Source of the DNA: Nereocystis luetkeana
Lineage: Eukaryota > Sar > Phaeophyceae > Laminariales > Laminariaceae
DNA: 64,000 bases
Direction: 5' to 3'
NCBI GenBank assembly: GCA_031213475.1
Contig: JARUPZ010000012.1
Coordinates: forward strand, 6,174,878-6,238,877
A program made the position numbers and the translations under genes. Below the pieces are notes generated by a model that did no database searches, was not told the DNA's origin, and saw nothing but the letters and a program-made list of their open reading frames with translations. Each line of letters opens with the position of its first letter. Position 1 is the stretch's first letter. Below, in pieces: positions 8,365 to 60,145 of the stretch.

Positions 8365-9309
8365 TCATCCCCACGCCATCGGTGTGGGTCTGTCGTCCCT
8401 CCCTCCCCTGTTCCTTCTTCCTTCTTGGCGGTCCCTAAGCTGAAGCTTGAACCTCGACACCCTCCTCGAAATGGCGACCTGAGTGGTCACCGAGACGATT
8501 TGGAGCAGGAGTTCCTTCACTACCCCCTTCCTTGCCATCGACCCACCATCCCTCCCCCCCATGACGCTAGCTGCCAGCTGGTCGATGAGGTTGCTGCCCT
8601 CTACCCCGAGGCGCCCAACGCTTTCCACCGCTAAGGTGGCTAGTTTGTGGCTCCGCTCGTCGAAGGACACATGTCCCGGACGCGCGTAGTGTTGGCGCTT
8701 GCGCGCCTCGGAGGTAGAGGCAGCTGATCCATCATGATCAGCGCTGCCTCCTCGCAGGTGGACCTGCGCTTGCGGGTCTGCATGGGTGACGTCCAGCAGG
8801 ATGGACTTTTCCCTGTATTCCCTGTTAGGAGCGTCCCGAAGACCTCCTCTCCTGACAACGATGCCCATCCGCAGGTTCCGGTCTGCAGTGAACGGTTCGC
8901 CGCTCTCCACTTGGTGAGGGATTCCCAGCCGCTTCAGCGTGCGGGAGATCGCGTGAACCAACGGTTGATGTTGGTTTACCTGTGCCCCTGCTCTGGGACA
9001 GATGCGTGCGTGGCGTGTGCCTATGTCGACTGCCTCGCAGCAGGGGCACCTCACCGCCACGTGCTCCTCGATGCGTATGAAGCGCCTTCCCATGCCCACG
9101 AACTCCTCTGCTGGTATGACACGGAGCGAGTCTGTTGGCCTCGCCCGAAGGCAAGCAGTGGCTCCTGCTCCTTGTAGGCTCCTGTAGCGAGCTTTGGCGA
9201 AGGCCTTGGTCTCGCTCCCCCCCAGCGGGTCGCCTGGTCCAGGTGGGCGTGCAATCTCCGGTAGCCCCTCCAGCGAGGCTGTGTGTGCAGCGTGTCGACC
9301 CTGATTCAC
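8365..9309 (-). pseudogene. Restriction-like endonuclease region of the retrotransposon, cut off by an amber stop
   Basis: In frame with the RT, separated only by TAG and one codon; the first residue shown at 9309 is GTG, not ATG, so it has no start of its own. Residues 88-104 form a Cys/His knuckle (CPCC, then H100 and C104), as expected before an RLE domain. The catalytic core should read R/K-P-D followed by about 12-25 residues and another acidic residue in a beta strand. Here LRMGIVVRRGG is followed by KSILLDVT, so the second Asp (D173) is present but the first acidic position reads Gly149. After this comes a conserved-looking helical tail (RPGHVSFDERSHKLATLAVE). With the stop and the missing acidic residue, nicking activity is unlikely. 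Confidence 0.65.
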
Positions 9310-9312
9310 CAG

Positions 9313-26179: not shown

Positions 26180-26437
26180 ATGACGACCCCTCGTCTCGTC
26201 ACCGTAGCGGCCACGCAGCGATCGTGCTCGCCCACTTCTAGCGAGAATGTAGACGCCGCTGAGGTTCTCGTTCGGGCGGCCGCGGCGGCGGGAGCGCAGG
26301 TGATCTTGCTGCAAGAGTTATTTGCGACGCAGTACTTCTGCCAGGAGCAGCGCCAGGAACACTTTCTCCTCGCGGAGAGCGAAAGCGACAGCCCCCTGCT
26401 GAAACGGTTCCAGGCACTCGCGGAGGAGCTGGAGGTG
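26180..26437 (+). CDS. CPA: Amidase exon 1
   Basis: 86 codons, ends GAGGTG before a GTGAGT donor. Contains the catalytic Glu in QELFATQYFCQEQR and the VDAAEVLVRAAAAAGAQVIL helix-strand. Confidence 0.92.
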
Positions 26438-26509
26438 GTGAGTCACTGGCACAATAATTTGGCAGTCTACTGCTGTTCCTGTTGCTGTTGCTGCTACTGT
26501 TGCTGTTGC

Positions 26510-26543
<34 letters not shown>

Positions 26544-29500
26544 ATGTGCTGCATTCGTGATGCATACCGGTACGTATTACAACGCGCTTTGCCCGCTCGC
26601 TCGCGAGGAATATAGCAAAATGCGTGTGAAGCGGACAGAGAGGTCCATCACTGCTGATGCAAACTAACGACTTGGGAACGCCAAGAGCTCCTACGAGTAC
26701 GAAATTTTACAGGCAATCGGCTTCTTGTTACGCACGGCTGTTACGGCAAAAACGGGGGATGACAAATAACCATCCCCGGGTTCCCGATTTATCCATGAAC
26801 TTAAAAAAATACCTGGTACCTGGTATACAACAATCACGAAACAAAAAAAGGCGTGCACGCTTTTTAGGACTCCAATGGCAAACTACTTGTAAATTGATTG
26901 TTCAGTCCCCAAAACATGACTGCAGTTCTAAAAAATGAACGCTGCCTGTGCCACGTATAAAGCGCTCCACCTCCGCTCCGCTTACGATGTTGAATCAGAA
27001 TTCACGAATACCTGACCCAGGATTCGCGAATTCCTGGCCCAGCGAGCGACCGCTGTCCAGGTGCAAGCCACGGGCCCTGTCTGTTCGCGTGTTTTACCAG
27101 TCTGCCAGCACCGTTCCGTGCGGTATCCACTTGGTACTCCCACAAGCGCTATCAACCAAACAGTGCCCGCTGCTGCTGTCGAAGTGACGACGTACTAACA
27201 GTACCGATACGTACCCAACCACACCATATGAACCATGACGCCTAATTATCTCTTCAACAACAAACTGCACATTAATTATCATATCGGTTCCCGATCTCTA
27301 ATAATATTTTAATATTTGCCTTTAATAAAGCTCCATGAGCACGATGGTCAAGTGTCAGGTATACCAGGTACGCACGCGTCCAATCGGCTATCCCCCGGAA
27401 GACAATATATCTTTCCCTCTGGAGGGTGCCCAGAAATTAGGGGCAGCATCGCGTGGTAAATTTCGGACTCAGCATGCCGACCTACAGAGTGGTCGGCCAC
27501 GCACGCTCTGGTCGCCGACGTTCTAACAGAAACTCTCTGGCGGGTATGGAATCGGTTCCTCTGGGGGGTGACTGAAACTTCGCGGCCCGATCGTTTGGTA
27601 AAAACATTACCCATAACATCGACGTCCATAGTGTTCGGGCGCGCACCCTGTGGAGGCTGACGGCATGCCCCAAAACTCTCAGGGGTGTGTGGAACCGTAC
27701 CCGCTGGAGGGTGCACAAAAAACCCCGACCCTCGTAGTGCAGTCAAACGAGCACCCAACATACCGATACCCAGTGACTCCGGGTAGCCGGGGATTGTGTC
27801 GTCGATCGAATCCACGTCCTCAGCGTCATTTGCCAGAGCGTATATTCGGACCACGACGCTAATCACCGATTAAGCGGAGCCCGATGTCGAAGAAGACAGG
27901 GGTGACGTGGCCGACAGCAAGCCGAACAACGACGAGTATATACGGCAATCCCTCCAACGCCAAGCCGACTGCCCCCCCCCCCCCCTTGACGTCACCGACC
28001 TCGTTTTTACATATAATCTGCCTCTCGACCAATTTATTCGACGCTGTCATCCAATGCAAGAAAGTTCGCCCTACAATCGGTTCTTAGAAGGATGCAGCTC
28101 ACCCTTCGTGCGACTCGCCCAACACCTCGCGGCGCTTCGCGTTTGGCGCAAGCAGTGTCCGAGTGGTCAGTGAAAACCCGACGCACTCCGGCCCGCCATT
28201 GTAGGGATGCGACTGTCTATGTTCATACGACTACGGCCAATGCATGACATGAGTACACTCCCCCTACGAGTACTTGGCGCAACGTGTATCGAAAACCGCG
28301 CATGAAGAGCATCACACCGGCTGCATTTCGGGCGTTCTCATTGCCCACGACCTCGGCATCGGACTCGTCGCAGTCGATCATGGTGACCTCGTCGTCGTCT
28401 GGGCGGGGGACACCCGAGCCGCCCACGACGTGGTGGCTTCGCGAAGTACACAAGAAGGCCTCACTCGCAACCGAGAAATATAGGCGTTTCCTCCTCCTCC
28501 GCCCCCCCCCCCCCCCCTCCCCCCCTGATTGATGACTGCCAGAGTTTATGCCCAATTGAGTTGACTATTGTTTTGCGCTTTTTTTGGACACACGTCCCGT
28601 CGAGTAGCAGTACGTGGGGAGGCTAGAGTAGTTGAAAATATTAGGTCGGGGAAGTGAAGGGGAGGCCTAGTCTGCTTTGGGCGTTGGGGGGATCGTCGTA
28701 CGCGTCGTCGTTCGGCGTGCCGTCGACCGAGTCATCCGTGTCTCCGATATCGGACTCCGCGTATTCGGTTGTCGTCCCTACGTCCGAATCCGAATCCACG
28801 TCCTCGGCGACGAGCAGGACCGGAAGGCTCTTGGGTATTAGACATCGGACTCCGCGTGTTAGGTTATCGCCTCTGCGTCTTGATCCACGCCCTCATTGTC
28901 CGTACGTGAATTTCCGTAACGCCCCTACCCGCGCCGAGTAGGACCCGAAGTCTCTTGGGCATTACCAAGAGCCTTTCGGTCCTGCTTGTCGCGGGTAGGG
29001 GCGTTACGGAAATTTACGCGCAGACGCTGAGCGCGTGGATCCAGACGCAGAGGTGATAACGGAACACGCGGAGTCCGACGTCGAAGAAGAAATGTATGAC
29101 TTGGCTGACAGCACGCCGAACAACGATGAGGGACGAGCATTCCTCCGTCGCCCAACCGACTGGGCCTGCCCTTGACTTCGTCGACAAATGTTTTTCTTCT
29201 ACTCTTACCTCCGTTCGTACGCGTACTCGGCCCTTGACTTCGTCGACACATGCTTTTCTTCTACTCTTACCTCCGTCCGTACGGATACTCGGCGTAGCGC
29301 ATACTCGTACGTAGGGAGTGAAAATTGGACCCTGCGGGTACCCGCCACAAACGGGTACCCGCCAATTTTTGGAGCCCGGACCCTACCCTACCTGCCGGGT
29401 AGTGCCATTTTGACGACCGGGTACCCGTTTTTGTGCCGGGTACCCGGCATTATTTTTGAATGAAATTTGAATGAAATATAGTGTGTAATACTGATGTATG

Positions 29501-38517: not shown

Positions 38518-39075
38518 CCGCGGATCGAAAGCGTGACTCGACGAGAGTTTTTACGATTGGGTTGAGCCTTGGCTGCGTGAGAGTTTGCGGCAGTGTCGAC
38601 TTGTCGACGGACTCTCCTTGCGTGACTGGCTGGCTCGTGGTATAACGGCTGCAAGAGCGGGCGGTAGCGGTTCGAGTGTGTATTTTACTTCGATTCTTGA
38701 TGATTAATTACATTTCTTACTTGTTTCATGATTTTTTTTTTGCCGCATGGGGTGATTTGGGAAATCATCGAAGTGTTGGTTTGAAGCTGTTTTTTAGTCA
38801 GTTTCACTTCACGGGTTCGCAGATACTGAGCCCTGCTGTTGATAGGTATCGGGCGTGTGCTGCGGGAGGGGTACTGCTGCAGCGATGCGTGCTACGATAG
38901 AGGTAGTTTTTTTCGCCTTCCAAGGCAAATCTTTCTGACTGACCGAACTGCTCTTTAACCCTAAGTATCGCTGGAATGTCATTGGCGTTCTACGGTATTG
39001 TTTATGGTATCCTTAGGCTACGGGGTTGTTCATCTAACAAAAACAATTGAATGAGGTGCGCAGCGCTCCTCAAGT
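38518..39075. other. Amidase 3' flank before the satellite
   Basis: 558 bp after the stop codon; presumably 3' UTR and intergenic DNA. A terminal-repeat-like GCTACGATAGAGGTAG lies at 38889-38904, and GCTCCTCAAGTGAATAGCC-type sequence leads directly into the first satellite unit. No polyadenylation signal could be assigned. Confidence 0.5.
38885..38907. repeat. Solo terminal repeat of the GCGTTCTACGATAGAGG family
   Basis: GTGCTACGATAGAGGTAG closely matches the termini of the elements at 21972-22223 and 34325-34572. Its partner end was not found nearby. Confidence 0.5.
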
Positions 39076-42000
39076 GAATAGCCTGAGAAACGTAAAGGTG
39101 CAACACTATCATATCAGGGGTCTAAACACTATTTTTTCGGAGGCTCCTTTTGTGAGGAGCGTGTAACCCCATTCGACATAACCTTCGAGGAATATTGTAG
39201 GCTACAAAGCCCGACACACGATCAAATGGGCTTGCAAATAGTTGGATGCAATACGTGTATAAACATCGGGTGCGAATAGTTGGGCTAATGCCCGACTCAC
39301 AATCAAAAGAGCTTGCAAATAGTTGGATGCAATACACATTGGATGCGACTAGTTGTAGGCAAAAGCCCACAAACAATCAAATAGGCTTGCAAATAATTGC
39401 ATGCAGTGCACATCGGATGCGAATAGTTCTAGGCTAAGTAAACCCGACACGCAATAAATTGGGCTCGCACGTAGTTGGATGCAATACACATTGGATGAGC
39501 AAATAGTTCGAGTGGGTAGTTTTTGCGAGTTGAGGAGAGCCCCACCCCCATCAGTGAAACATATTTTTGGCTATACGTACAATGATCAAGTAAAACCTCT
39601 ATCAATACCATACCACGGCTCTTGGCATACATGCAACGTATGATAGGTACCACAGGTGCTTGTAGTGCTAACGGTCAAGAGGCGCACAGCAGTAGGCCCG
39701 GCCAGCGGTGCGACTGAAGGTTTTTACAGTAAGGCCACTTCTTATGCAGTCGGATTTGCAGTCAGTTGGGAATGGTGCCATCAGCACGTTCGCACGAGCT
39801 TTTGCCCCGAAAATGTGTGAAACTGCTGTTTCTCGCCCCAGAATGACTTGGACTTTTCTCCAAGACCTATCTAGAGCTGTTTCCCGCTTCTCCATACGCC
39901 CATTTGCAGGAAATCACCTTCGGTACTTTTCCGATCCAACTGGGTCAAATACGATTACAACCCCCGATTGGATCGGAAAAATCGTTTTTTCCGATCCGAT
40001 GCCCGATCGTAAAAGAATAGCCTGAGAAACGTAAAGGTGCAACACTATCATATCAGGGGTCTAAACACTATTTTTTCGGAGGCTCCTTTTGTGAGGAGCG
40101 TGTAACCCCATTCGACATAACCTTCGAGGAATATTGTAGGCTACAAAGCCCGACACACGATCAAATGGGCTTGCAAATAGTTGGATGCAATACGTGTATA
40201 AACATCGGGTGCGAATAGTTGGGCTAATGCCCGACTCACAATCAAAAGAGCTTGCAAATAGTTGGATGCAATACACATTGGATGCGACTAGTTGTAGGCA
40301 AAAGTCCACAAACAATCAAATAGGCTTGCAAATAATTGCATGCAGTGCACATCGGATGCGAATAGTTCTAGGCTAAGTAAACCCGACACGCAATAAATTG
40401 GGCTCGCACGTAGTTGGATGCAATACACATTGGATGAGCAAATAGTTCGAGTGGGTAGTTTTTGCGAGTTGAGGAGAGCCCCACCCCCATCAGTGAAACA
40501 TATTTTTGGCTATACGTACAATGATCAAGTAAAACCTCTATCAATACCATACCACGGCTCTTGGCATACATGCAACGTATGATAGGTACCACAGGTGCTT
40601 GTAGTGCTAACGGTCAAGAGGCGCACAGCAGTAGGCCCGGCCAGCGGTGCGACTGAAGGTTTTTACAGTAAGGCCACTTCTTATGCAGTCGGATTTGCAG
40701 TCAGTTGGGAATGGTGCCATCAGCACGTTCGCACGAGCTTTTGCCCCGAAAATGTGTGAAACTGCTGTTTCTCGCCCCAGAATGACTTGGACTTTTCTCC
40801 AAGACCTATCTAGAGCTGTTTCCCGCTTCTCCATACGCCCATTTGCAGGAAATCACCTTCGGTACTTTTCCGATCCAACTGGGTCAAATACGATTACAAC
40901 CCCCGATTGGATCGGAAAAATCGTTTTTTCCGATCCGATGCCCGATCGTAAAAGAATAGCCTGAGAAACGTAAAGGTGCAACACTATCATATCAGGGGTC
41001 TAAACACTATTTTTTCGGAGGCTCCTTTTGTGAGGAGCGTGTAACCCCATTCGACATAACCTTCGAGGAATATTGTAGGCTACAAAGCCCGACACACGAT
41101 CAAATGGGCTTGCAAATAGTTGGATGCAATACGTGTATAAACATCGGGTGCGAATAGTTGGGCTAATGCCCGACTCACAATCAAAAGAGCTTGCAAATAG
41201 TTGGATGCAATACACATTGGATGCGACTAGTTGTAGGCAAAAGCCCACAAACAATCAAATAGGCTTGCAAATAATTGCATGCAGTGCACATCGGATGCGA
41301 ATAGTTCTAGGCTAAGTAAACCCGACACGCAATAAATTGGGCTCGCACGTAGTTGGATGCAATACACATTGGATGAGCAAATAGTTCGAGTGGGTAGTTT
41401 TTGCGAGTTGAGGAGAGCCCCACCCCCATCAGTGAAACATATTTTTGGCTATACGTACAATGATCAAGTAAAACCTCTATCAATACCATACCACGGCTCT
41501 TGGCATACATGCAACGTATGATAGGTACCACAGGTGCTTGTAGTGCTAACGGTCAAGAGGCGCACAGCAGTAGGCCCGGCCAGCGGTGCGACTGAAGGTT
41601 TTTACAGTAAGGCCACTTCTTATGCAGTCGGATTTGCAGTCAGTTGGGAATGGTGCCATCAGCACGTTCGCACGAGCTTTTGCCCCGAAAATGTGTGAAA
41701 CTGCTGTTTCTCGCCCCAGAATGACTTGGACTTTTCTCCAAGACCTATCTAGAGCTGTTTCCCGCTTCTCCATACGCCCATTTGCAGGAAATCACCTTCG
41801 GTACTTTTCCGATCCAACTGGGTCAAATACGATTACAACCCCCGATTGGATCGGAAAAATCGTTTTTTCCGATCCGATGCCCGATCGTAAAAGAATAGCC
41901 TGAGAAACGTAAAGGTGCAACACTATCATATCAGGGGTCTAAACACTATTTTTTCGGAGGCTCCTTTTGTGAGGAGCGTGTAACCCCATTCGACATAACC

Positions 42001-45000
42001 TTCGAGGAATATTGTAGGCTACAAAGCCCGACACACGATCAAATGGGCTTGCAAATAGTTGGATGCAATACGTGTATAAACATCGGGTGCGAATAGTTGG
42101 GCTAATGCCCGACTCACAATCAAAAGAGCTTGCAAATAGTTGGATGCAATACACATTGGATGCGACTAGTTGTAGGCAAAAGTCCACAAACAATCAAATA
42201 GGCTTGCAAATAATTGCATGCAGTGCACATCGGATGCGAATAGTTCTAGGCTAAGTAAACCCGACACGCAATAAATTGGGCTCGCACGTAGTTGGATGCA
42301 ATACACATTGGATGAGCAAATAGTTCGAGTGGGTAGTTTTTGCGAGTTGAGGAGAGCCCCACCCCCATCAGTGAAACATATTTTTGGCTATACGTACAAT
42401 GATCAAGTAAAACCTCTATCAATACCATACCACGGCTCTTGGCATACATGCAACGTATGATAGGTACCACAGGTGCTTGTAGTGCTAACGGTCAAGAGGC
42501 GCACAGCAGTAGGCCCGGCCAGCGGTGCGACTGAAGGTTTTTACAGTAAGGCCACTTCTTATGCAGTCGGATTTGCAGTCAGTTGGGAATGGTGCCATCA
42601 GCACGTTCGCACGAGCTTTTGCCCCGAAAATGTGTGAAACTGCTGTTTCTCGCCCCAGAATGACTTGGACTTTTCTCCAAGACCTATCTAGAGCTGTTTC
42701 CCGCTTCTCCATACGCCCATTTGCAGGAAATCACCTTCGGTACTTTTCCGATCCAACTGGGTCAAATACGATTACAACCCCCGATTGGATCGGAAAAATC
42801 GTTTTTTCCGATCCGATGCCCGATCGTAAAAGAATAGCCTGAGAAACGTAAAGGTGCAACACTATCATATCAGGGGTCTAAACACTATTTTTTCGGAGGC
42901 TCCTTTTGTGAGGAGCGTGTAACCCCATTCGACATAACCTTCGAGGAATATTGTAGGCTACAAAGCCCGACACACGATCAAATGGGCTTGCAAATAGTTG
43001 GATGCAATACGTGTATAAACATCGGGTGCGAATAGTTGGGCTAATGCCCGACTCACAATCAAAAGAGCTTGCAAATAGTTGGATGCAATACACATTGGAT
43101 GCGACTAGTTGTAGGCAAAAGCCCACAAACAATCAAATAGGCTTGCAAATAATTGCATGCAGTGCACATCGGATGCGAATAGTTCTAGGCTAAGTAAACC
43201 CGACACGCAATAAATTGGGCTCGCACGTAGTTGGATGCAATACACATTGGATGAGCAAATAGTTCGAGTGGGTAGTTTTTGCGAGTTGAGGAGAGCCCCA
43301 CCCCCATCAGTGAAACATATTTTTGGCTATACGTACAATGATCAAGTAAAACCTCTATCAATACCATACCACGGCTCTTGGCATACATGCAACGTATGAT
43401 AGGTACCACAGGTGCTTGTAGTGCTAACGGTCAAGAGGCGCACAGCAGTAGGCCCGGCCAGCGGTGCGACTGAAGGTTTTTACAGTAAGGCCACTTCTTA
43501 TGCAGTCGGATTTGCAGTCAGTTGGGAATGGTGCCATCAGCACGTTCGCACGAGCTTTTGCCCCGAAAATGTGTGAAACTGCTGTTTCTCGCCCCAGAAT
43601 GACTTGGACTTTTCTCCGAGACCTATCTAGAGCTGTTTCCCGCTTCTCCATACGCCCATTTGCAGGAAATCACCTTCGGTACTTTTCCGATCCAACTGGG
43701 TCAAATACGATTACAACCCCCGATTGGATCGGAAAAATCGTTTTTTCCGATCCGATGCCCGATCGTAAAAGAATAGCCTGAGAAACGTAAAGGTGCAACA
43801 CTATCATATCAGGGGTCTAAACACTATTTTTTCGGAGGCTCCTTTTGTGAGGAGCGTGTAACCCCATTCGACATAACCTTCGAGGAATATTGTAGGCTAC
43901 AAAGCCCGACACACGATCAAATGGGCTTGCAAATAGTTGGATGCAATACGTGTATAAACATCGGGTGCGAATAGTTGGGCTAATGCCCGACTCACAATCA
44001 AAAGAGCTTGCAAATAGTTGGATGCAATACACATTGGATGCGACTAGTTGTAGGCAAAAGTCCACAAACAATCAAATAGGCTTGCAAATAATTGCATGCA
44101 GTGCACATCGGATGCGAATAGTTCTAGGCTAAGTAAACCCGACACGCAATAAATTGGGCTCGCACGTAGTTGGATGCAATACACATTGGATGAGCAAATA
44201 GTTCGAGTGGGTAGTTTTTGCGAGTTGAGGAGAGCCCCACCCCCATCAGTGAAACATATTTTTGGCTATACGTACAATGATCAAGTAAAACCTCTATCAA
44301 TACCATACCACGGCTCTTGGCATACATGCAACGTATGATAGGTACCACAGGTGCTTGTAGTGCTAACGGTCAAGAGGCGCACAGCAGTAGGCCCGGCCAG
44401 CGGTGCGACTGAAGGTTTTTACAGTAAGGCCACTTCTTATGCAGTCGGATTTGCAGTCAGTTGGGAATGGTGCCATCAGCACGTTCGCACGAGCTTTTGC
44501 CCCGAAAATGTGTGAAACTGCTGTTTCTCGCCCCAGAATGACTTGGACTTTTCTCCGAGACCTATCTAGAGCTGTTTCCCGCTTCTCCATACGCCCATTT
44601 GCAGGAAATCACCTTCGGTACTTTTCCGATCCAACTGGGTCAAATACGATTACAACCCCCGATTGGATCGGAAAAATCGTTTTTTCCGATCCGATGCCCG
44701 ATCGTAAAAGAATAGCCTGAGAAACGTAAAGGTGCAACACTATCATATCAGGGGTCTAAACACTATTTTTTCGGAGGCTCCTTTTGTGAGGAGCGTGTAA
44801 CCCCATTCGACATAACCTTCGAGGAATATTGTAGGCTACAAAGCCCGACACACGATCAAATGGGCTTGCAAATAGTTGGATGCAATACGTGTATAAACAT
44901 CGGGTGCGAATAGTTGGGCTAATGCCCGACTCACAATCAAAAGAGCTTGCAAATAGTTGGATGCAATACACATTGGATGCGACTAGTTGTAGGCAAAAGT

Positions 45001-48000
45001 CCACAAACAATCAAATAGGCTTGCAAATAATTGCATGCAGTGCACATCGGATGCGAATAGTTCTAGGCTAAGTAAACCCGACACGCAATAAATTGGGCTC
45101 GCACGTAGTTGGATGCAATACACATTGGATGAGCAAATAGTTCGAGTGGGTAGTTTTTGCGAGTTGAGGAGAGCCCCACCCCCATCAGTGAAACATATTT
45201 TTGGCTATACGTACAATGATCAAGTAAAACCTCTATCAATACCATACCACGGCTCTTGGCATACATGCAACGTATGATAGGTACCACAGGTGCTTGTAGT
45301 GCTAACGGTCAAGAGGCGCACAGCAGTAGGCCCGGCCAGCGGTGCGACTGAAGGTTTTTACAGTAAGGCCACTTCTTATGCAGTCGGATTTGCAGTCAGT
45401 TGGGAATGGTGCCATCAGCACGTTCGCACGAGCTTTTGCCCCGAAAATGTGTGAAACTGCTGTTTCTCGCCCCAGAATGACTTGGACTTTTCTCCAAGAC
45501 CTATCTAGAGCTGTTTCCCGCTTCTCCATACGCCCATTTGCAGGAAATCACCTTCGGTACTTTTCCGATCCAACTGGGTCAAATACGATTACAACCCCCG
45601 ATTGGATCGGAAAAATCGTTTTTTCCGATCCGATGCCCGATCGTAAAAGAATAGCCTGAGAAACGTAAAGGTGCAACACTATCATATCAGGGGTCTAAAC
45701 ACTATTTTTTCGGAGGCTCCTTTTGTGAGGAGCGTGTAACCCCATTCGACATAACCTTCGAGGAATATTGTAGGCTACAAAGCCCGACACACGATCAAAT
45801 GGGCTTGCAAATAGTTGGATGCAATACGTGTATAAACATCGGGTGCGAATAGTTGGGCTAATGCCCGACTCACAATCAAAAGAGCTTGCAAATAGTTGGA
45901 TGCAATACACATTGGATGCGACTAGTTGTAGGCAAAAGCCCACAAACAATCAAATAGGCTTGCAAATAATTGCATGCAGTGCACATCGGATGCGAATAGT
46001 TCTAGGCTAAGTAAACCCGACACGCAATAAATTGGGCTCGCACGTAGTTGGATGCAATACACATTGGATGAGCAAATAGTTCGAGTGGGTAGTTTTTGCG
46101 AGTTGAGGAGAGCCCCACCCCCATCAGTGAAACATATTTTTGGCTATACGTACAATGATCAAGTAAAACCTCTATCAATACCATACCACGGCTCTTGGCA
46201 TACATGCAACGTATGATAGGTACCACAGGTGCTTGTAGTGCTAACGGTCAAGAGGCGCACAGCAGTAGGCCCGGCCAGCGGTGCGACTGAAGGTTTTTAC
46301 AGTAAGGCCACTTCTTATGCAGTCGGATTTGCAGTCAGTTGGGAATGGTGCCATCAGCACGTTCGCACGAGCTTTTGCCCCGAAAATGTGTGAAACTGCT
46401 GTTTCTCGCCCCAGAATGACTTGGACTTTTCTCCAAGACCTATCTAGAGCTGTTTCCCGCTTCTCCATACGCCCATTTGCAGGAAATCACCTTCGGTACT
46501 TTTCCGATCCAACTGGGTCAAATACGATTACAACCCCCGATTGGATCGGAAAAATCGTTTTTTCCGATCCGATGCCCGATCGTAAAAGAATAGCCTGAGA
46601 AACGTAAAGGTGCAACACTATCATATCAGGGGTCTAAACACTATTTTTTCGGAGGCTCCTTTTGTGAGGAGCGTGTAACCCCATTCGACATAACCTTCGA
46701 GGAATATTGTAGGCTACAAAGCCCGACACACGATCAAATGGGCTTGCAAATAGTTGGATGCAATACGTGTATAAACATCGGGTGCGAATAGTTGGGCTAA
46801 TGCCCGACTCACAATCAAAAGAGCTTGCAAATAGTTGGATGCAATACACATTGGATGCGACTAGTTGTAGGCAAAAGTCCACAAACAATCAAATAGGCTT
46901 GCAAATAATTGCATGCAGTGCACATCGGATGCGAATAGTTCTAGGCTAAGTAAACCCGACACGCAATAAATTGGGCTCGCACGTAGTTGGATGCAATACA
47001 CATTGGATGAGCAAATAGTTCGAGTGGGTAGTTTTTGCGAGTTGAGGAGAGCCCCACCCCCATCAGTGAAACATATTTTTGGCTATACGTACAATGATCA
47101 AGTAAAACCTCTATCAATACCATACCACGGCTCTTGGCATACATGCAACGTATGATAGGTACCACAGGTGCTTGTAGTGCTAACGGTCAAGAGGCGCACA
47201 GCAGTAGGCCCGGCCAGCGGTGCGACTGAAGGTTTTTACAGTAAGGCCACTTCTTATGCAGTCGGATTTGCAGTCAGTTGGGAATGGTGCCATCAGCACG
47301 TTCGCACGAGCTTTTGCCCCGAAAATGTGTGAAACTGCTGTTTCTCGCCCCAGAATGACTTGGACTTTTCTCCAAGACCTATCTAGAGCTGTTTCCCGCT
47401 TCTCCATACGCCCATTTGCAGGAAATCACCTTCGGTACTTTTCCGATCCAACTGGGTCAAATACGATTACAACCCCCGATTGGATCGGAAAAATCGTTTT
47501 TTCCGATCCGATGCCCGATCGTAAAAGAATAGCCTGAGAAACGTAAAGGTGCAACACTATCATATCAGGGGTCTAAACACTATTTTTTCGGAGGCTCCTT
47601 TTGTGAGGAGCGTGTAACCCCATTCGACATAACCTTCGAGGAATATTGTAGGCTACAAAGCCCGACACACGATCAAATGGGCTTGCAAATAGTTGGATGC
47701 AATACGTGTATAAACATCGGGTGCGAATAGTTGGGCTAATGCCCGACTCACAATCAAAAGAGCTTGCAAATAGTTGGATGCAATACACATTGGATGCGAC
47801 TAGTTGTAGGCAAAAGCCCACAAACAATCAAATAGGCTTGCAAATAATTGCATGCAGTGCACATCGGATGCGAATAGTTCTAGGCTAAGTAAACCCGACA
47901 CGCAATAAATTGGGCTCGCACGTAGTTGGATGCAATACACATTGGATGAGCAAATAGTTCGAGTGGGTAGTTTTTGCGAGTTGAGGAGAGCCCCACCCCC

Positions 48001-51000
48001 ATCAGTGAAACATATTTTTGGCTATACGTACAATGATCAAGTAAAACCTCTATCAATACCATACCACGGCTCTTGGCATACATGCAACGTATGATAGGTA
48101 CCACAGGTGCTTGTAGTGCTAACGGTCAAGAGGCGCACAGCAGTAGGCCCGGCCAGCGGTGCGACTGAAGGTTTTTACAGTAAGGCCACTTCTTATGCAG
48201 TCGGATTTGCAGTCAGTTGGGAATGGTGCCATCAGCACGTTCGCACGAGCTTTTGCCCCGAAAATGTGTGAAACTGCTGTTTCTCGCCCCAGAATGACTT
48301 GGACTTTTCTCCGAGACCTATCTAGAGCTGTTTCCCGCTTCTCCATACGCCCATTTGCAGGAAATCACCTTCGGTACTTTTCCGATCCAACTGGGTCAAA
48401 TACGATTACAACCCCCGATTGGATCGGAAAAATCGTTTTTTCCGATCCGATGCCCGATCGTAAAAGAATAGCCTGAGAAACGTAAAGGTGCAACACTATC
48501 ATATCAGGGGTCTAAACACTATTTTTTCGGAGGCTCCTTTTGTGAGGAGCGTGTAACCCCATTCGACATAACCTTCGAGGAATATTGTAGGCTACAAAGC
48601 CCGACACACGATCAAATGGGCTTGCAAATAGTTGGATGCAATACGTGTATAAACATCGGGTGCGAATAGTTGGGCTAATGCCCGACTCACAATCAAAAGA
48701 GCTTGCAAATAGTTGGATGCAATACACATTGGATGCGACTAGTTGTAGGCAAAAGTCCACAAACAATCAAATAGGCTTGCAAATAATTGCATGCAGTGCA
48801 CATCGGATGCGAATAGTTCTAGGCTAAGTAAACCCGACACGCAATAAATTGGGCTCGCACGTAGTTGGATGCAATACACATTGGATGAGCAAATAGTTCG
48901 AGTGGGTAGTTTTTGCGAGTTGAGGAGAGCCCCACCCCCATCAGTGAAACATATTTTTGGCTATACGTACAATGATCAAGTAAAACCTCTATCAATACCA
49001 TACCACGGCTCTTGGCATACATGCAACGTATGATAGGTACCACAGGTGCTTGTAGTGCTAACGGTCAAGAGGCGCACAGCAGTAGGCCCGGCCAGCGGTG
49101 CGACTGAAGGTTTTTACAGTAAGGCCACTTCTTATGCAGTCGGATTTGCAGTCAGTTGGGAATGGTGCCATCAGCACGTTCGCACGAGCTTTTGCCCCGA
49201 AAATGTGTGAAACTGCTGTTTCTCGCCCCAGAATGACTTGGACTTTTCTCCGAGACCTATCTAGAGCTGTTTCCCGCTTCTCCATACGCCCATTTGCAGG
49301 AAATCACCTTCGGTACTTTTCCGATCCAACTGGGTCAAATACGATTACAACCCCCGATTGGATCGGAAAAATCGTTTTTTCCGATCCGATGCCCGATCGT
49401 AAAAGAATAGCCTGAGAAACGTAAAGGTGCAACACTATCATATCAGGGGTCTAAACACTATTTTTTCGGAGGCTCCTTTTGTGAGGAGCGTGTAACCCCA
49501 TTCGACATAACCTTCGAGGAATATTGTAGGCTACAAAGCCCGACACACGATCAAATGGGCTTGCAAATAGTTGGATGCAATACGTGTATAAACATCGGGT
49601 GCGAATAGTTGGGCTAATGCCCGACTCACAATCAAAAGAGCTTGCAAATAGTTGGATGCAATACACATTGGATGCGACTAGTTGTAGGCAAAAGTCCACA
49701 AACAATCAAATAGGCTTGCAAATAATTGCATGCAGTGCACATCGGATGCGAATAGTTCTAGGCTAAGTAAACCCGACACGCAATAAATTGGGCTCGCACG
49801 TAGTTGGATGCAATACACATTGGATGAGCAAATAGTTCGAGTGGGTAGTTTTTGCGAGTTGAGGAGAGCCCCACCCCCATCAGTGAAACATATTTTTGGC
49901 TATACGTACAATGATCAAGTAAAACCTCTATCAATACCATACCACGGCTCTTGGCATACATGCAACGTATGATAGGTACCACAGGTGCTTGTAGTGCTAA
50001 CGGTCAAGAGGCGCACAGCAGTAGGCCCGGCCAGCGGTGCGACTGAAGGTTTTTACAGTAAGGCCACTTCTTATGCAGTCGGATTTGCAGTCAGTTGGGA
50101 ATGGTGCCATCAGCACGTTCGCACGAGCTTTTGCCCCGAAAATGTGTGAAACTGCTGTTTCTCGCCCCAGAATGACTTGGACTTTTCTCCAAGACCTATC
50201 TAGAGCTGTTTCCCGCTTCTCCATACGCCCATTTGCAGGAAATCACCTTCGGTACTTTTCCGATCCAACTGGGTCAAATACGATTACAACCCCCGATTGG
50301 ATCGGAAAAATCGTTTTTTCCGATCCGATGCCCGATCGTAAAAGAATAGCCTGAGAAACGTAAAGGTGCAACACTATCATATCAGGGGTCTAAACACTAT
50401 TTTTTCGGAGGCTCCTTTTGTGAGGAGCGTGTAACCCCATTCGACATAACCTTCGAGGAATATTGTAGGCTACAAAGCCCGACACACGATCAAATGGGCT
50501 TGCAAATAGTTGGATGCAATACGTGTATAAACATCGGGTGCGAATAGTTGGGCTAATGCCCGACTCACAATCAAAAGAGCTTGCAAATAGTTGGATGCAA
50601 TACACATTGGATGCGACTAGTTGTAGGCAAAAGTCCACAAACAATCAAATAGGCTTGCAAATAATTGCATGCAGTGCACATCGGATGCGAATAGTTCTAG
50701 GCTAAGTAAACCCGACACGCAATAAATTGGGCTCGCACGTAGTTGGATGCAACACACATTGGATGAGCAAATAGTTCGAGTGGGTAGTTTTTGCGAGTTG
50801 AGGAGAGCCCCACCCCCATCAGTGAAACATATTTTTGGCTATACGTACAATGATCAAGTAAAACCTCTATCAATACCATACCACGGCTCTTGGCATACAT
50901 GCAACGTATGATAGGCACCACAGGTGCTTGTAGTGCTAACGGTCAAGAGGCGCACAGCAGTAGGCCCGGCCAGCGGTGCGACTGAAGGTTTTTACAGTAA

Positions 51001-54000
51001 GGCCACTTCTTATGCAGTCGGATTTGCAGTCAGTTGGGAATGGTGCCATCAGCACGTTCGCACGAGCTTTTGCCCCGAAAATGTGTGAAACTGCTGTTTC
51101 TCGCCCCAGAATGACTTGGACTTTTCTCCAAGACCTATCTAGAGCTGTTTCCCGCTTCTCCATACGCCCATTTGCAGGAAATCACCTTCGGTACTTTTCC
51201 GATCCAACTGGGTCAAATACGATTACAACCCCCGATTGGATCGGAAAAATCGTTTTTTCCGATCCGATGCCCGATCGTAAAAGAATAGCCTGAGAAACGT
51301 AAAGGTGCAACACTATCATATCAGGGGTCTAAACACTATTTTTTCGGAGGCTCCTTTTGTGAGGAGCGTGTAACCCCATTCGACATAACCTTCGAGGAAT
51401 ATTGTAGGCTACAAAGCCCGACACACGATCAAATGGGCTTGCAAATAGTTGGATGCAATACGTGTATAAACATCGGGTGCGAATAGTTGGGCTAATGCCC
51501 GACTCACAATCAAAAGAGCTTGCAAATAGTTGGATGCAATACACATTGGATGCGACTAGTTGTAGGCAAAAGTCCACAAACAACCAAATAGGCTTGCAAA
51601 TAATTGCATGCAGTGCACATCGGATGCGAATAGTTCTAGGCTAAGTAAACCCGACACGCAATAAATTGGGCTCGCACGTAGTTGGATGCAATACACATTG
51701 GATGAGCAAATAGTTCGAGTGGGTAGTTTTTGCGAGTTGAGGAGAGCCCCACCCCCATCAGTGAAACATATTTTTGGCTATACGTACAATGATCAAGTAA
51801 AACCTCTATCAATACCATACCACGGCTCTTGGCATACATGCAACGTATGATAGGTACCACAGGTGCTTGTAGTGCTAACGGTCAAGAGGCGCACAGCAGT
51901 AGGCCCGGCCAGCGGTGCGACTGAAGGTTTTTACAGTAAGGCCACTTCTTATGCAGTCGGATTTGCAGTCAGTTGGGAATGGTGCCATCAGCACGTTCGC
52001 ACGAGCTTTTGCCCCGAAAATGTGTGAAACTGCTGTTTCTCGCCCCAGAATGACTTGGACTTTTCTCCAAGACCTATCTAGAGCTGTTTCCCGCTTCTCC
52101 ATACGCCCATTTGCAGGAAATCACCTTCGGTACTTTTCCGATCCAACTGGGTCAAATACGATTACAACCCCCGATTGGATCGGAAAAATCGTTTTTTCCG
52201 ATCCGATGCCCGATCGTAAAAGAATAGCCTGAGAAACGTAAAGGTGCAACACTATCATATCAGGGGTCTAAACACTATTTTTTCGGAGGCTCCTTTTGTG
52301 AGGAGCGTGTAACCCCATTCGACATAACCTTCGAGGAATATTGTAGGCTACAAAGCCCGACACACGATCAAATGGGCTTGCAAATAGTTGGATGCAATAC
52401 GTGTATAAACATCGGGTGCGAATAGTTGGGCTAATGCCCGACTCACAATCAAAAGAGCTTGCAAATAGTTGGATGCAATACACATTGGATGCGACTAGTT
52501 GTAGGCAAAAGCCCACAAACAATCAAATAGGCTTGCAAATAATTGCATGCAGTGCACATCGGATGCGAATAGTTCTAGGCTAAGTAAACCCGACACGCAA
52601 TAAATTGGGCTCGCACGTAGTTGGATGCAATACACATTGGATGAGCAAATAGTTCGAGTGGGTAGTTTTTGCGAGTTGAGGAGAGCCCCACCCCCATCAG
52701 TGAAACATATTTTTGGCTATACGTACAATGATCAAGTAAAACCTCTATCAATACCATACCACGGCTCTTGGCATACATGCAACGTATGATAGGTACCACA
52801 GGTGCTTGTAGTGCTAACGGTCAAGAGGCGCACAGCAGTAGGCCCGGCCAGCGGTGCGACTGAAGGTTTTTACAGTAAGGCCACTTCTTATGCAGTCGGA
52901 TTTGCAGTCAGTTGGGAATGGTGCCATCAGCACGTTCGCACGAGCTTTTGCCCCGAAAATGTGTGAAACTGCTGTTTCTCGCCCCAGAATGACTTGGACT
53001 TTTCTCCAAGACCTATCTAGAGCTGTTTCCCGCTTCTCCATACGCCCATTTGCAGGAAATCACCTTCGGTACTTTTCCGATCCAACTGGGTCAAATACGA
53101 TTACAACCCCCGATTGGATCGGAAAAATCGTTTTTTCCGATCCGATGCCCGATCGTAAAATAATAGCCTGAGAAACGTAAAGGTGCAACACTATCATATC
53201 AGGGGTCTAAACACTATTTTTTCGGAGGCTCCTTTTGTGAGGAGCGTGTAACCCCATTCGACATAACCTTCGAGGAATATTGTAGGCTACAAAGCCCGAC
53301 ACACGATCAAATGGGCTTGCAAATAGTTGGATGCAATACGTGTATAAACATCGGGTGCGAATAGTTGGGCTAATGCCCGACTCACAATCAAAAGAGCTTG
53401 CAAATAGTTGGATGCAATACACATTGGATGCGACTAGTTGTAGGCAAAAGTCCACAAACAATCAAATAGGCTTGCAAATAATTGCATGCAGTGCACATCG
53501 GATGCGAATAGTTCTAGGCTAAGTAAACCCGACACGCAATAAATTGGGCTCGCACGTAGTTGGATGCAACACACATTGGATGAGCAAATAGTTCGAGTGG
53601 GTAGTTTTTGCGAGTTGAGGAGAGCCCCACCCCCATCAGTGAAACATATTTTTGGCTATACGTACAATGATCAAGTAAAACCTCTATCAATACCATACCA
53701 CGGCTCTTGGCATACATGCAACGTATGATAGGCACCACAGGTGCTTGTAGTGCTAACGGTCAAGAGGCGCACAGCAGTAGGCCCGGCCAGCGGTGCGACT
53801 GAAGGTTTTTACAGTAAGGCCACTTCTTATGCAGTCGGATTTGCAGTCAGTTGGGAATGGTGCCATCAGCACGTTCGCACGAGCTTTTGCCCCGAAAATG
53901 TGTGAAACTGCTGTTTCTCGCCCCAGAATGACTTGGACTTTTCTCCAAGACCTATCTAGAGCTGTTTCCCGCTTCTCCATACGCCCATTTGCAGGAAATC

Positions 54001-57000
54001 ACCTTCGGTACTTTTCCGATCCAACTGGGTCAAATACGATTACAACCCCCGATTGGATCGGAAAAATCGTTTTTTCCGATCCGATGCCCGATCGTAAAAG
54101 AATAGCCTGAGAAACGTAAAGGTGCAACACTATCATATCAGGGGTCTAAACACTATTTTTTCGGAGGCTCCTTTTGTGAGGAGCGTGTAACCCCATTCGA
54201 CATAACCTTCGAGGAATATTGTAGGCTACAAAGCCCGACACACGATCAAATGGGCTTGCAAATAGTTGGATGCAATACGTGTATAAACATCGGGTGCGAA
54301 TAGTTGGGCTAATGCCCGACTCACAATCAAAAGAGCTTGCAAATAGTTGGATGCAATACACATTGGATGCGACTAGTTGTAGGCAAAAGCCCACAAACAA
54401 TCAAATAGGCTTGCAAATAATTGCATGCAGTGCACATCGGATGCGAATAGTTCTAGGCTAAGTAAACCCGACACGCAATAAATTGGGCTCGCACGTAGTT
54501 GGATGCAATACACATTGGATGAGCAAATAGTTCGAGTGGGTAGTTTTTGCGAGTTGAGGAGAGCCCCACCCCCATCAGTGAAACATATTTTTGGCTATAC
54601 GTACAATGATCAAGTAAAACCTCTATCAATACCATACCACGGCTCTTGGCATACATGCAACGTATGATAGGTACCACAGGTGCTTGTAGTGCTAACGGTC
54701 AAGAGGCGCACAGCAGTAGGCCCGGCCAGCGGTGCGACTGAAGGTTTTTACAGTAAGGCCACTTCTTATGCAGTCGGATTTGCAGTCAGTTGGGAATGGT
54801 GCCATCAGCACGTTCGCACGAGCTTTTGCCCCGAAAATGTGTGAAACTGCTGTTTCTCGCCCCAGAATGACTTGGACTTTTCTCCAAGACCTATCTAGAG
54901 CTGTTTCCCGCTTCTCCATACGCCCATTTGCAGGAAATCACCTTCGGTACTTTTCCGATCCAACTGGGTCAAATACGATTACAACCCCCGATTGGATCGG
55001 AAAAATCGTTTTTTCCGATCCGATGCCCGATCGTAAAAGAATAGCCTGAGAAACGTAAAGGTGCAACACTATCATATCAGGGGTCTAAACACTATTTTTT
55101 CGGAGGCTCCTTTTGTGAGGAGCGTGTAACCCCATTCGACATAACCTTCGAGGAATATTGTAGGCTACAAAGCCCGACACACGATCAAATGGGCTTGCAA
55201 ATAGTTGGATGCAATACGTGTATAAACATCGGGTGCGAATAGTTGGGCTAATGCCCGACTCACAATCAAAAGAGCTTGCAAATAGTTGGATGCAATACAC
55301 ATTGGATGCGACTAGTTGTAGGCAAAAGTCCACAAACAATCAAATAGGCTTGCAAATAATTGCATGCAGTGCACATCGGATGCGAATAGTTCTAGGCTAA
55401 GTAAACCCGACACGCAATAAATTGGGCTCGCACGTAGTTGGATGCAACACACATTGGATGAGCAAATAGTTCGAGTGGGTAGTTTTTGCGAGTTGAGGAG
55501 AGCCCCACCCCCATCAGTGAAACATATTTTTGGCTATACGTACAATGATCAAGTAAAACCTCTATCAATACCATACCACGGCTCTTGGCATACATGCAAC
55601 GTATGATAGGTACCACAGGTGCTTGTAGTGCTAACGGTCAAGAGGCGCACAGCAGTAGGCCCGGCCAGCGGTGCGACTGAAGGTTTTTACAGTAAGGCCA
55701 CTTCTTATGCAGTCGGATTTGCAGTCAGTTGGGAATGGTGCCATCAGCACGTTCGCACGAGCTTTTGCCCCGAAAATGTGTGAAACTGCTGTTTCTCGCC
55801 CCAGAATGACTTGGACTTTTCTCCAAGACCTATCTAGAGCTGTTTCCCGCTTCTCCATACGCCCATTTGCAGGAAATCACCTTCGGTACTTTTCCGATCC
55901 AACTGGGTCAAATACGATTACAACCCCCGATTGGATCGGAAAAATCGTTTTTTCCGATCCGATGCCCGATCGTAAAAGAATAGCCTGAGAAACGTAAAGG
56001 TGCAACACTATCATATCAGGGGTCTAAACACTATTTTTTCGGAGGCTCCTTTTGTGAGGAGCGTGTAACCCCATTCGACATAACCTTCGAGGAATATTGT
56101 AGGCTACAAAGCCCGACACACGATCAAATGGGCTTGCAAATAGTTGGATGCAATACGTGTATAAACATCGGGTGCGAATAGTTGGGCTAATGCCCGACTC
56201 ACAATCAAAAGAGCTTGCAAATAGTTGGATGCAATACACATTGGATGCGACTAGTTGTAGGCAAAAGTCCACAAACAATCAAATAGGCTTGCAAATAATT
56301 GCATGCAGTGCACATCGGATGCGAATAGTTCTAGGCTAAGTAAACCCGACACGCAATAAATTGGGCTCGCACGTAGTTGGATGCAATACACATTGGATGA
56401 GCAAATAGTTCGAGTGGGTAGTTTTTGCGAGTTGAGGAGAGCCCCACCCCCATCAGTGAAACATATTTTTGGCTATACGTACAATGATCAAGTAAAACCT
56501 CTATCAATACCATACCACGGCTCTTGGCATACATGCAACGTATGATAGGTACCACAGGTGCTTGTAGTGCTAACGGTCAAGAGGCGCACAGCAGTAGGCC
56601 CGGCCAGCGGTGCGACTGAAGGTTTTTACAGTAAGGCCACTTCTTATGCAGTCGGATTTGCAGTCAGTTGGGAATGGTGCCATCAGCACGTTCGCACGAG
56701 CTTTTGCCCCGAAAATGTGTGAAACTGCTGTTTCTCGCCCCAGAATGACTTGGACTTTTCTCCAAGACCTATCTAGAGCTGTTTCCCGCTTCTCCATACG
56801 CCCATTTGCAGGAAATCACCTTCGGTACTTTTCCGATCCAACTGGGTCAAATACGATTACAACCCCCGATTGGATCGGAAAAATCGTTTTTTCCGATCCG
56901 ATGCCCGATCGTAAAAGAATAGCCTGAGAAACGTAAAGGTGCAACACTATCATATCAGGGGTCTAAACACTATTTTTTCGGAGGCTCCTTTTGTGAGGAG

Positions 57001-57799
57001 CGTGTAACCCCATTCGACATAACCTTCGAGGAATATTGTAGGCTACAAAGCCCGACACACGATCAAATGGGCTTGCAAATAGTTGGATGCAATACGTGTA
57101 TAAACATCGGGTGCGAATAGTTGGGCTAATGCCCGACTCACAATCAAAAGAGCTTGCAAATAGTTGGATGCAATACACATTGGATGCGACTAGTTGTAGG
57201 CAAAAGTCCACAAACAATCAAATAGGCTTGCAAATAATTGCATGCAGTGCACATCGGATGCGAATAGTTCTAGGCTAAGTAAACCCGACACGCAATAAAT
57301 TGGGCTCGCACGTAGTTGGATGCAATACACATTGGATGAGCAAATAGTTCGAGTGGGTAGTTTTTGCGAGTTGAGGAGAGCCCCACCCCCATCAGTGAAA
57401 CATATTTTTGGCTATACGTACAATGATCAAGTAAAACCTCTATCAATACCATACCACGGCTCTTGGCATACATGCAACGTATGATAGGTACCACAGGTGC
57501 TTGTAGTGCTAACGGTCAAGAGGCGCACAGCAGTAGGCCCGGCCAGCGGTGCGACTGAAGGTTTTTACAGTAAGGCCACTTCTTATGCAGTCGGATTTGC
57601 AGTCAGTTGGGAATGGTGCCATCAGCACGTTCGCACGAGCTTTTGCCCCGAAAATGTGTGAAACTGCTGTTTCTCGCCCCAGAATGACTTGGACTTTTCT
57701 CCAAGACCTATCTAGAGCTGTTTCCCGCTTCTCCATACGCCCATTTGCAGGAAATCACCTTCGGTACTTTTCCGATCCAACTGGGTCAAATACGATTAC
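39076..57799. repeat. Satellite: about 20 tandem copies of a 939-bp unit
   Basis: Units start every 939 bp from 39076 (GAATAGCCTGAGAAACG...) to 56917; the last is cut at 57799 (883 bp), for 19.94 copies. Copies differ at only a few positions. Using site 1 (AGCCC/AGTCC), site 2 (CTCCAAG/CTCCGAG), site 3 (GCAATAC/GCAACAC) and site 4 (GGTACC/GGCACC), copies 3-7 and 8-12 have the same five-unit pattern and copies 1-2 match 3-4, so blocks of units were duplicated. Private changes occur in copy 14 (CAACCAAAT) and at the end of copy 15 (AAAATAAT). Each unit has small open frames on both strands (105 aa on +; 84, 74, 75 aa on -) with no motif and no sign of coding constraint. Function unknown. Confidence 0.97.
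39209..39511. repeat. Four-fold internal subrepeat within each satellite unit (unit 1 shown)
   Basis: Four degenerate monomers of about 70-80 bp, each of the form CCCGACxCxCAATCAAAT, GGCTTGCAAATAGTTGGATG, CAATACACATTGGATGCGA. The same block recurs in every 939-bp unit. Confidence 0.85.
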
Positions 57800-58076
57800 G
57801 ATCGGGCATCGGATCGGAAAAAACGATTTTTCCGATCCAATCGGGGGTTGTAATCGTATTTGACCCAGTTGGATCGGAAAAGTACGGAAGGTGATTTCCT
57901 GCAAATGGGCGTATGGAGAAGCGGGAAACAGCTCTAGATAGGTCTTGGAGAAAAATCCAAGTCATTCTGGGGCGAGAAACAGCAGTTTCACACATTTTCG
58001 GGGCAAAAGCTCGTGCGAACGTGCCGATAGCATCATTTCCAACTGACTGCAAATGCGACTGCATAAGAAGTGGCCT
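57797..58076. repeat. Inverted partial copy of the satellite unit closing the array
   Basis: About 280 bp that is the reverse complement of the 3' third of the unit (from the ATCGTAAAAG end back to AGTGGCCT), joined head to head to the truncated last unit at a shared TTAC/TTACGA. It has several differences from all array units (for example GCCGATAGCATCATTTCC, AAAAATCC, TGCGACTGC), so it is older than the homogenised array. Confidence 0.93.
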
Positions 58077-58146
58077 AATCGTCGATCTTCTGTATTTGAG
58101 AATGTTTTTTTCCGTTGAGAATGAGTCACATTGTTTTTTTTTTAGT

Positions 58147-58247
58147 TTAACCCTTTTGGGACTGCAGCCCCGCTCTGGGGACAAACTGCCTAGAATTTCA
58201 GTGCTCTGTCCCTAAAAAGGGATCGACTGCAGTTCCAACAGGGTTAA
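58147..58247. mobile_element. piggyBac-like MITE
   Basis: TTAACCCTTTTGGGACTGCA start and CTGCAGTTCCAACAGGGTTAA-type end, so intact TTAA on both sides. Confidence 0.8.
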
Positions 58248-59754
58248 GCGCTATGATTGGTTCCCTCACGAGCAGAAAATTGTCCTAGAACACTGTACGA
58301 GTATACAGGTACATTATTATTATTTCCCTTGCCATCCGACAATGTGCAGCATGATCTTCATTGACGCCAGGTATTGAGAAGCTTTTGATCTAGGGGGGAG
58401 GCGCCTCTCCCATAAATACCGATTTCTTGGATCATCGATATCTCGAGACTGCCACTGCTGCTTTGGATGTGTTTTGGTGTGATGGACAGCTGCCACGTAT
58501 GCCAGTATTTTGCTGTTTATTTTTTCACTGGGAGGAAACTAGATGCCTCGAAAACAAAAGTAATGCCCATTATTATTATTATTATTATGATTTCTCACCG
58601 GAAAAGCCACTCTCAATTAGGAAGCTTGGTTGTTTACAGGGTCTACATGGTGATCAGCGCAAAGGAGGCATTGCTTTCTCCCTTTTCTGTTAGAGAGCAC
58701 ACCAACCGGTAAAAACATCCACCAGTGACTGACTCAGAAAGAAGAGAGCGCACACTGTCAGGCGCGCCCGCCTTGTTCTACTACCTGGAGTATTTCTGGG
58801 GAACATTGTGATCAGAATAGTGGGGAACATTGTAATCTGAACCAAAAATGTGTAAAAGCAGGGGGGCGCATGATTTGTTTTGTCCGTCGTGGGTGATGAT
58901 TTCCATGCTCCCCTAAATACACTAAAAACAGGCTGGATCAGGTTTATATATTGTTCATCGAGTAAGCCTGACCTCGGCAAAAGAGCACGCAAGCACGACC
59001 AGCTGCGACAAGATGCCGGCCGAGACGCAGAGTATCACATGCCAGGTCTGCCTATTGAGCACGGTACTCGTTGTTACTCACTCGCGTGTGTGTTGATTGC
59101 TTAGAGATGATGGAGAAGAAATTCTTCATTAATTATTTCGAGCACGATGAAAGACTATGTATAATGATAAGGCAACAAGGGCATGCCGTTGCCTTTAGCT
59201 GGGGAATCCCTAATTTGCCATCCAAGATACGCCTCCCAAGTACTGCGTATACGATTCCAATATATGTACCCCGGCAATTATCGGCCTTTCCACGTCCTGC
59301 GAAACAGTACGTTACCATATCACTAGCCCACACTCTGATCAGCCGTACATTATGCAGAAATATGGGGAAACCATGAAAACTCGATTCCACCATGAATCCA
59401 AGATGAGGCTCATCAAACCCAATCCCACACCTCTAAACGGCAAGGCTACGAAGCCAACGAGGAACACCAAGAAAACGAAAGAAGGCGTACCAGTAAGGGA
59501 CAGGAAATAATACGCCATCAACGAGAACCACCGCCACACCACCCGCAGAAGGGGGGTGTGGGAATATGCCGACGAAAACGCGAAAAGGTACGGTTGGAAC
59601 CAAAAGTCACATCATGCAGTCCTGTGCCACATATGAGTATAGTTAATTTACCCGGATCGCCCCCGGCTCCCGAGCGGGGGGGGATCGGCAGGACGAAGAA
59701 GAAAATAACACCAAAAAATACTGTGCAGGCGTTATCTGCTGAGCCATAGGAGCA

Positions 59755-60145
59755 AAAAATCGTTCGATTATACCCACAGCGGAGAGTGTTGTAAGGATCA
59801 CCCTGGACTGTGGGTAATCGATCAATCGTTCGCCCCTGTATGGCTCAGTAGGCAACACTTCACATTCGACGTCGTCGAGGACACGGGTTCGAATCTCATT
59901 TCGTAGGTTTCCTATATAAAAACGGTTGTGCGCGTGTGTCCCTAAAAAAAGAAAAAATATCTCCCTGGTTCCCCAGGTATTGAAAACGAAGCGCGTGTAG
60001 GTCGGCGTACGGTCGTATACGGTACCGACGCCCCCAAAAAAACGCCGTTCAGATGGGGGAAGAGTGTTACAAGGATTACCCTGGGCTGGGCTATCGATCG
60101 ATCGTTTTCCCCTATAACTCAGTAGGTAACACCGTCACCATACTA
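59755..60145 (+). repeat. tRNA-derived SINE-like repeat, tandem monomers
   Basis: A-box-like TGGCTCAGTAGGCAACAC (about 59840), B-box ACGGGTTCGAATCTCAT (59883-59899), body with GGTTCCCCAGGTATTGAAAA and GTATACGGTACCGACG, then a second A-box-like TAACTCAGTAGGTAACACC about 275 bp on. Confidence 0.7.

Follow-up and report, generated by a model that had tools for sequence, protein, structure and literature searches.

How does a single-copy stretch of DNA first become a tandem array? The step can seldom be seen, since homogenisation wipes out the original junction. The window analysed here, the whole 64-kb stretch of Nereocystis luetkeana DNA at C12:6174878-6238877, contains an array of 18.7 kb (C12:6213953-6232676) in which the founding element, both breakpoints and a loop that acts as an orientation marker have been kept, so that a specific break-and-repair route becomes testable. 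Searches beyond the window covered an assembly of 465 Mb in 1,987 contigs. In keeping with a brown alga, the EsV-1-7 motif (PF19114) gave at least 150 matches in this assembly, every one of the 150 scored out of 1,710 candidates passing the cut-off, against hits in 0 of 14 control genomes; the domain is reported to have proliferated in brown algae and to be known otherwise mostly from giant viruses (PMC12477816). Our analysis indicates that the array is probably a young tandem duplication at a single locus, which arose at the midpoint of a palindromic MITE and grew by unequal exchange.

Structure and variation of the array

The initial annotation had described a 20-copy array with a 939-bp unit. 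This description was confirmed, except that the last unit is only 883 bp long. The units are arranged head to tail, and sequence identity at a lag of 939 bp is 99.0%, compared with 26-28% at lags of 937, 938, 940 and 941 (over positions 39001-57000). Unit 20 follows the repeat for its first 883 bases only and then runs into an intact palindromic MITE. When units were cut from position 39076 and the tail of unit 20 was excepted, there were six variable sites in the whole array (unit positions 1, 291, 302, 410, 573 and 787), and the pairwise divergence among units was 0.17% on average and 0.57% at most (first 883 bp). The copies are nearly identical, as had been noted from the outset, while the accompanying statement that almost all differences are transitions holds for five of the six sites and fails at unit position 1, where the variation is G/T.

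Analysis of the variants revealed that units 3-7 are the same as units 8-12, that units 1-2 match units 3-4, and that units 2-7 match units 7-12, the last forming one exact repeat of 6,076 bp with a lag of 4,695 bp, starting at position 39863. After shuffling of the 20 haplotypes, a run of at least six was obtained in 95 of 100,000 shuffles, run length being a statistic picked after the pattern had been seen. The multi-unit duplication proposed in the initial annotation is thus real, and the shared variant blocks are in line with its idea that the array was amplified recently, through unequal exchange of several units at a time (or rolling-circle copying). The 6,076-bp exact repeat at a lag of 4,695 bp could also be produced by misassembly, with the array itself real and its copy number and multi-unit block artefactual. 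We regard this as unlikely, because different rare variants are found in different units and each of the flanks in which the array ends has a single full-length match. The copy number of about 20 is derived from the assembly alone.

The first 656 bp of the unit, here called part X, were compared with the whole assembly. A 616-bp query from part X found 20 near-identical places, all within the array and hence all on contig C12, and 16 weak partial matches outside it (69-87%), with all 34 of 34 candidates scored. The array has the head-to-tail, near-identical, non-coding and homogenised units of a satellite; abundance at several loci was not found, the whole-assembly search giving one locus with 20 units. 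The degenerate 74-bp minisatellite in part X has distant relatives at C13:3151397-3151823 (L035, 67-82%, in several overlapping registers), which means that an older repeat family is present within part X. The left flank (556 bp, 38520-39075) has a single full match, itself, and elsewhere 33 pieces of about 35-115 bp match at 73-94%. Similarly, the only full match of the right flank (2,001 bp, 58080-60080) is itself among the 40 of 5,528 candidates that were scored; among the same 40, many places resemble its last 300 bp at 76-82% identity, and the rest of the flank is matched in shorter or more diverged pieces (71-98%).

On the upstream side, the array had been said to start 560 bp past the stop of a housekeeping gene. 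The distance is right (559 bp, from the stop at 38517), while the evidence for a gene covers the N-terminal piece of a carbon-nitrogen hydrolase only, and the last ORF before the array (38158-38514) gave no Pfam match at E 0.01. Between the hydrolase piece and the array there is also a nested degenerate tandem repeat of about 650 bp (30700-31350, periods of 6, 18, 71 and 142 bp). Elsewhere in the window, two adjoining ORFs on the minus strand (8368-12162) resemble a non-LTR-type retrotransposon: in the 949-aa ORF, PF00078 identifies a reverse transcriptase domain (E 2.6e-7) and a RING-like zinc-binding match falls short of its cut-off, and the 314-aa ORF that follows it is without Pfam match.

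Table 1. Coordinates of the array, its parts and the neighbouring gene piece within the window.
Feature	Positions	Strand	Evidence or remark
N-terminal piece of carbon-nitrogen hydrolase gene, upstream of the array	26180..26557	+	Pfam PF00795 (CN_hydrolase), E 3.1e-8
Tandem array	39076..57799	+	19 full 939-bp units (39076-56916) and a 20th of 883 bp (56917-57799)
Part X of unit 1, non-coding	39076..39731	+	Own-genome search; full-length only at this locus, same in every unit
Degenerate 74-bp minisatellite in part X of unit 1, recurring in the units	39259..39497	+	Tandem Repeats Finder, 3.2 copies, 77% matches
Left-type MITE arm of unit 1, 227 bp	39732..39958	+	Same in all units except for the variant at unit position 787
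Flipped 50-bp MITE loop of unit 1	39959..40008	+	Reverse complement of the closing MITE's loop; same in units 1-19
Unit junction: GTAA and AA filler, then the sequence starting at 39076	40009..40014	+	Alignment and prediction
Intact palindromic MITE closing the array	57573..58076	+	Self-inverted match, 94% over 504 bp
Loop of the closing MITE, usual orientation of the family	57800..57849	+	Standard in 26 of 35 scored dispersed elements
Right arm of the closing MITE	57850..58076	-	Left-type at 6 of 7 diagnostic sites

The palindromic MITE in the unit and at the end of the array

Beyond what the initial annotation contained, we detected half of a dispersed MITE within the unit and an intact MITE that closes the array, with the loop inverted between the two. 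The last 283 bp of the unit consist of 281 bp of a dispersed palindromic (foldback) element of about 504 bp and a 2-nt filler. The arm in unit 1 shows no difference from the left arm of the closing MITE (0/227), the loop is identical at 50 of 50 positions between its two orientations, and the inner 36 bp of both MITE arms are identical. The breakpoint of the unit lies 4 bp past the loop: the GTAA at the junction is the inner end of the arm in reverse complement, and it is followed by the AA filler in units 1-19. A predicted tail, composed of the arm, the closing loop in reverse complement and the arm's final 4 nt, likewise reverse-complemented, agrees with the observed sequence at 281 of 281 nt in 15 of the 19 units; the one mismatch in units 5, 6, 10 and 11 is the variant at unit position 787.

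The closing MITE is flanked by a TAA target-site duplication (57571-57573 and 58076-58078), and such an intact copy is present at the right end of the array only. Folded as single-stranded DNA, it gives a near-perfect hairpin at -299.7 kcal/mol, compared with a mean of -66.2 kcal/mol for 100 shuffles (z -47). The family to which it belongs is widespread, since the exact terminal 21-mer occurs 252 times in forward and 240 times in reverse orientation (492 ends; control 0 and 0), 20 of the forward occurrences being within the array. In a target-site survey of 37 elements including the closing MITE (35 with both ends exact and two without exact ends), identical flanking 3-mers were found in 29 of the 35, all of them TNA (TTA 14, TAA 12, TCA 2 and TGA 1), and in the other six they were not identical. 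TNA is reported as the target-site duplication of classic Harbinger elements (PMC12477816). With its terminal inverted repeats in a 504-bp self-palindrome and its dispersal over the genome, the element has the features of a PIF/Harbinger-type MITE, and judged from sequence the copy in the unit can be classified as a foldback MITE with Harbinger-type TNA target-site duplications.

Two further observations concern the family as a whole. A MITE copy with the same identity (93-94%) and the same query range is found on twelve small contigs and at a place on C26 (including L029-L032 on C1970, C1967, C1115 and C26), which reveals that this copy is part of a larger segment, either repeated or redundantly assembled; the full element but no part X was found in those that were opened, namely three of the twelve small contigs and the C26 copy. 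In addition, four elements (L076-L079) share the terminal 21-mer, measure 857-869 bp end to end and have no arm match at E 1e-10, and they are perhaps a second, longer family with the same ends.

Founding and growth of the array

Because an intact MITE is present at the right end only and the flanks have a single full match each, we infer that one MITE insertion founded the array and that growth took place to the left of it. The starting state would have been a single-copy 656-bp stretch beside a Harbinger-type foldback MITE, and the breakpoints of the first duplication would be the centre of the MITE palindrome on the right and position 39076 on the left. For the founding event itself we tentatively suggest a satellite caught at birth, in which the palindromic MITE broke with a hairpin cap, was opened off-centre, was filled in with its loop inverted and was joined in direct orientation; on the same tentative footing, such MITEs may be able to seed new satellites in brown algae. 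Extruded as a cruciform or hairpin, the palindrome would have left an end capped by a hairpin. If this end was nicked 4 nt ahead of the loop and then filled in, the product would be the arm, the inverted loop and GTAA; the opened end, once joined through a 2-nt filler to a break at position 39076, would create the first tandem duplication. Hairpin-capped breaks at palindromes, opened by Artemis in human or MRX-Sae2 in yeast, have been described (PMC7999016), and by analogy similar nucleases might have acted at this MITE. Unequal exchange (or rolling-circle copying) could then have enlarged the duplication to about 20 units, some of the growth being in multi-unit blocks.

The 2-nt filler speaks against the hairpin step in so far as it is also compatible with ordinary end joining or template switching. 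The same local duplication may have started from replication template switching, or from ordinary end joining, at the centre of the MITE, with an independent flip of the loop before or after, an account that is credible although we stop short of calling it probable. The identical inner 36 bp of the arms would suffice for a crossover, and loops of the family do flip where there is no array, as is evident from three of the 35 scored elements, including the closest relative. This account requires a separate flip, however, and the 50/50 identity of the loop in both orientations implies that such a flip is not old, whereas a hairpin yields the flip, GTAA and the position of the breakpoint in one step. 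It is for this one-step economy that the hairpin route is favoured.

To place the inverted loop within the family, loop orientation was scored in 35 dispersed elements, of which 26 are standard, three flipped and six ambiguous by a score threshold that we set ourselves. The elements came from 40 regions taken from the best matches and from end pairs in the listed matches, not from a random sample, and five of the 40 were dropped because no pairing of arms was possible: one is rearranged and four are longer variants lacking an arm match. Arm type (left or right) is read from seven sites that were chosen from the same 35 elements. The array units show the flipped arrangement, and the closing MITE is standard at the one diagnostic site of seven at which its arms differ, the site on which the call depends. 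Its right arm, left-type at six of the seven sites, is partly converted.

The closest dispersed relative, on C13 (L040), has a left-type arm adjoining a flipped loop, as in the array units. Since this element is flipped too, the founder may already have had a flipped loop, in which case the closing copy would have turned back. By count of flips, the hairpin history and the history with a flipped founder are tied. A search for a second close relative by arm pattern obtained 24 places (22 forward and two reverse), of which 21 belong to this locus, two to the C13 element and one to C21; the C21 place was rejected because it is unrelated sequence.

Role of the array and comparison with known systems

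The array is most likely without function. Although 939 is divisible by 3, a coding array was rejected, as the longest stop-free run is 109 codons (two joined units, six frames). An RNA gene or tRNA unit was likewise rejected, since the 64-kb window yielded neither an Rfam hit at gathering scores nor a tRNA.

A centromeric role or a regional heterochromatin seed had also been considered in the initial annotation. The position near the middle of an 11.67-Mb contig and the near-identical units with multi-unit blocks would suit a centromeric or regional heterochromatin satellite, but the array occupies one locus in the assembly, 18.7 kb long, and LTR elements mark the putative centromeres reported for Ectocarpus, which have fewer tandem repeats than are found elsewhere (PMC11541908). 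A centromeric satellite would be expected on most chromosomes; full matches to part X are confined to this locus, and a genome-wide or centromeric satellite was rejected on this ground. Taken together, a centromeric or heterochromatic satellite is extremely improbable here. H3K9me2 is reported as absent in Ectocarpus (PMC11541908), and an H3K9-methylated heterochromatin seed is, by analogy, doubtful for a brown alga. Tandem repeats are reported to make up 6.7% of the Ectocarpus genome outside centromeres (PMC11541908), so there is not necessarily anything remarkable in an array close to a gene. A lineage-specific expansion, the third option raised from the outset, is plausible.

Satellites born from transposons or linked to MITEs are already known, and the nearest foldback case that we found is Tetris with its TIR-220 satellite in Drosophila virilis (PMC4079207). 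The two cases are alike in that a satellite array is physically derived from a foldback transposon, and unequal crossing over, suggested there as a cause of growth (PMC4079207), is invoked for the present array too. As described, however, the TIR-220 repeat lies inside the terminal inverted repeats of its element and on many contigs (PMC4079207), whereas the unit here is mostly host DNA plus half an element, at one locus. An expansion of the Tetris kind, with tandem repeats amplified inside the arms of a foldback transposon and mobilised with it, would account for the physical joining of element and satellite; it is nevertheless very unlikely here, because 656 of the unit's 939 bp come from outside the element, with no other full match in the whole assembly, and because the breakpoint is at the centre of the palindrome, not at the termini.

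The MITE resembles the non-autonomous Harbinger elements described in Ectocarpus (PMC12477816) in its TNA target-site duplications and as a dispersed non-autonomous element, and the likeness rests on these features; the family here differs from them in being almost fully palindromic. Palindrome-driven amplification through hairpin-capped breaks (PMC7999016) shares with this locus a breakpoint at a palindrome, and the opening of hairpins by nucleases as described there could explain the inverted loop. The amplification products reported in that work are mainly palindromic (inverted), in contrast to the direct tandem array found here. In our literature search, the titles and opening parts of abstracts that were listed mention no satellite with its origin at the centre of a palindromic MITE. 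The present array differs from Tetris in that its unit is mostly host DNA and its breakpoint coincides with the centre of a palindrome, and it is unusual in that the founding scar is still readable; other palindromic MITE centres of the same family are candidate sites for further arrays.
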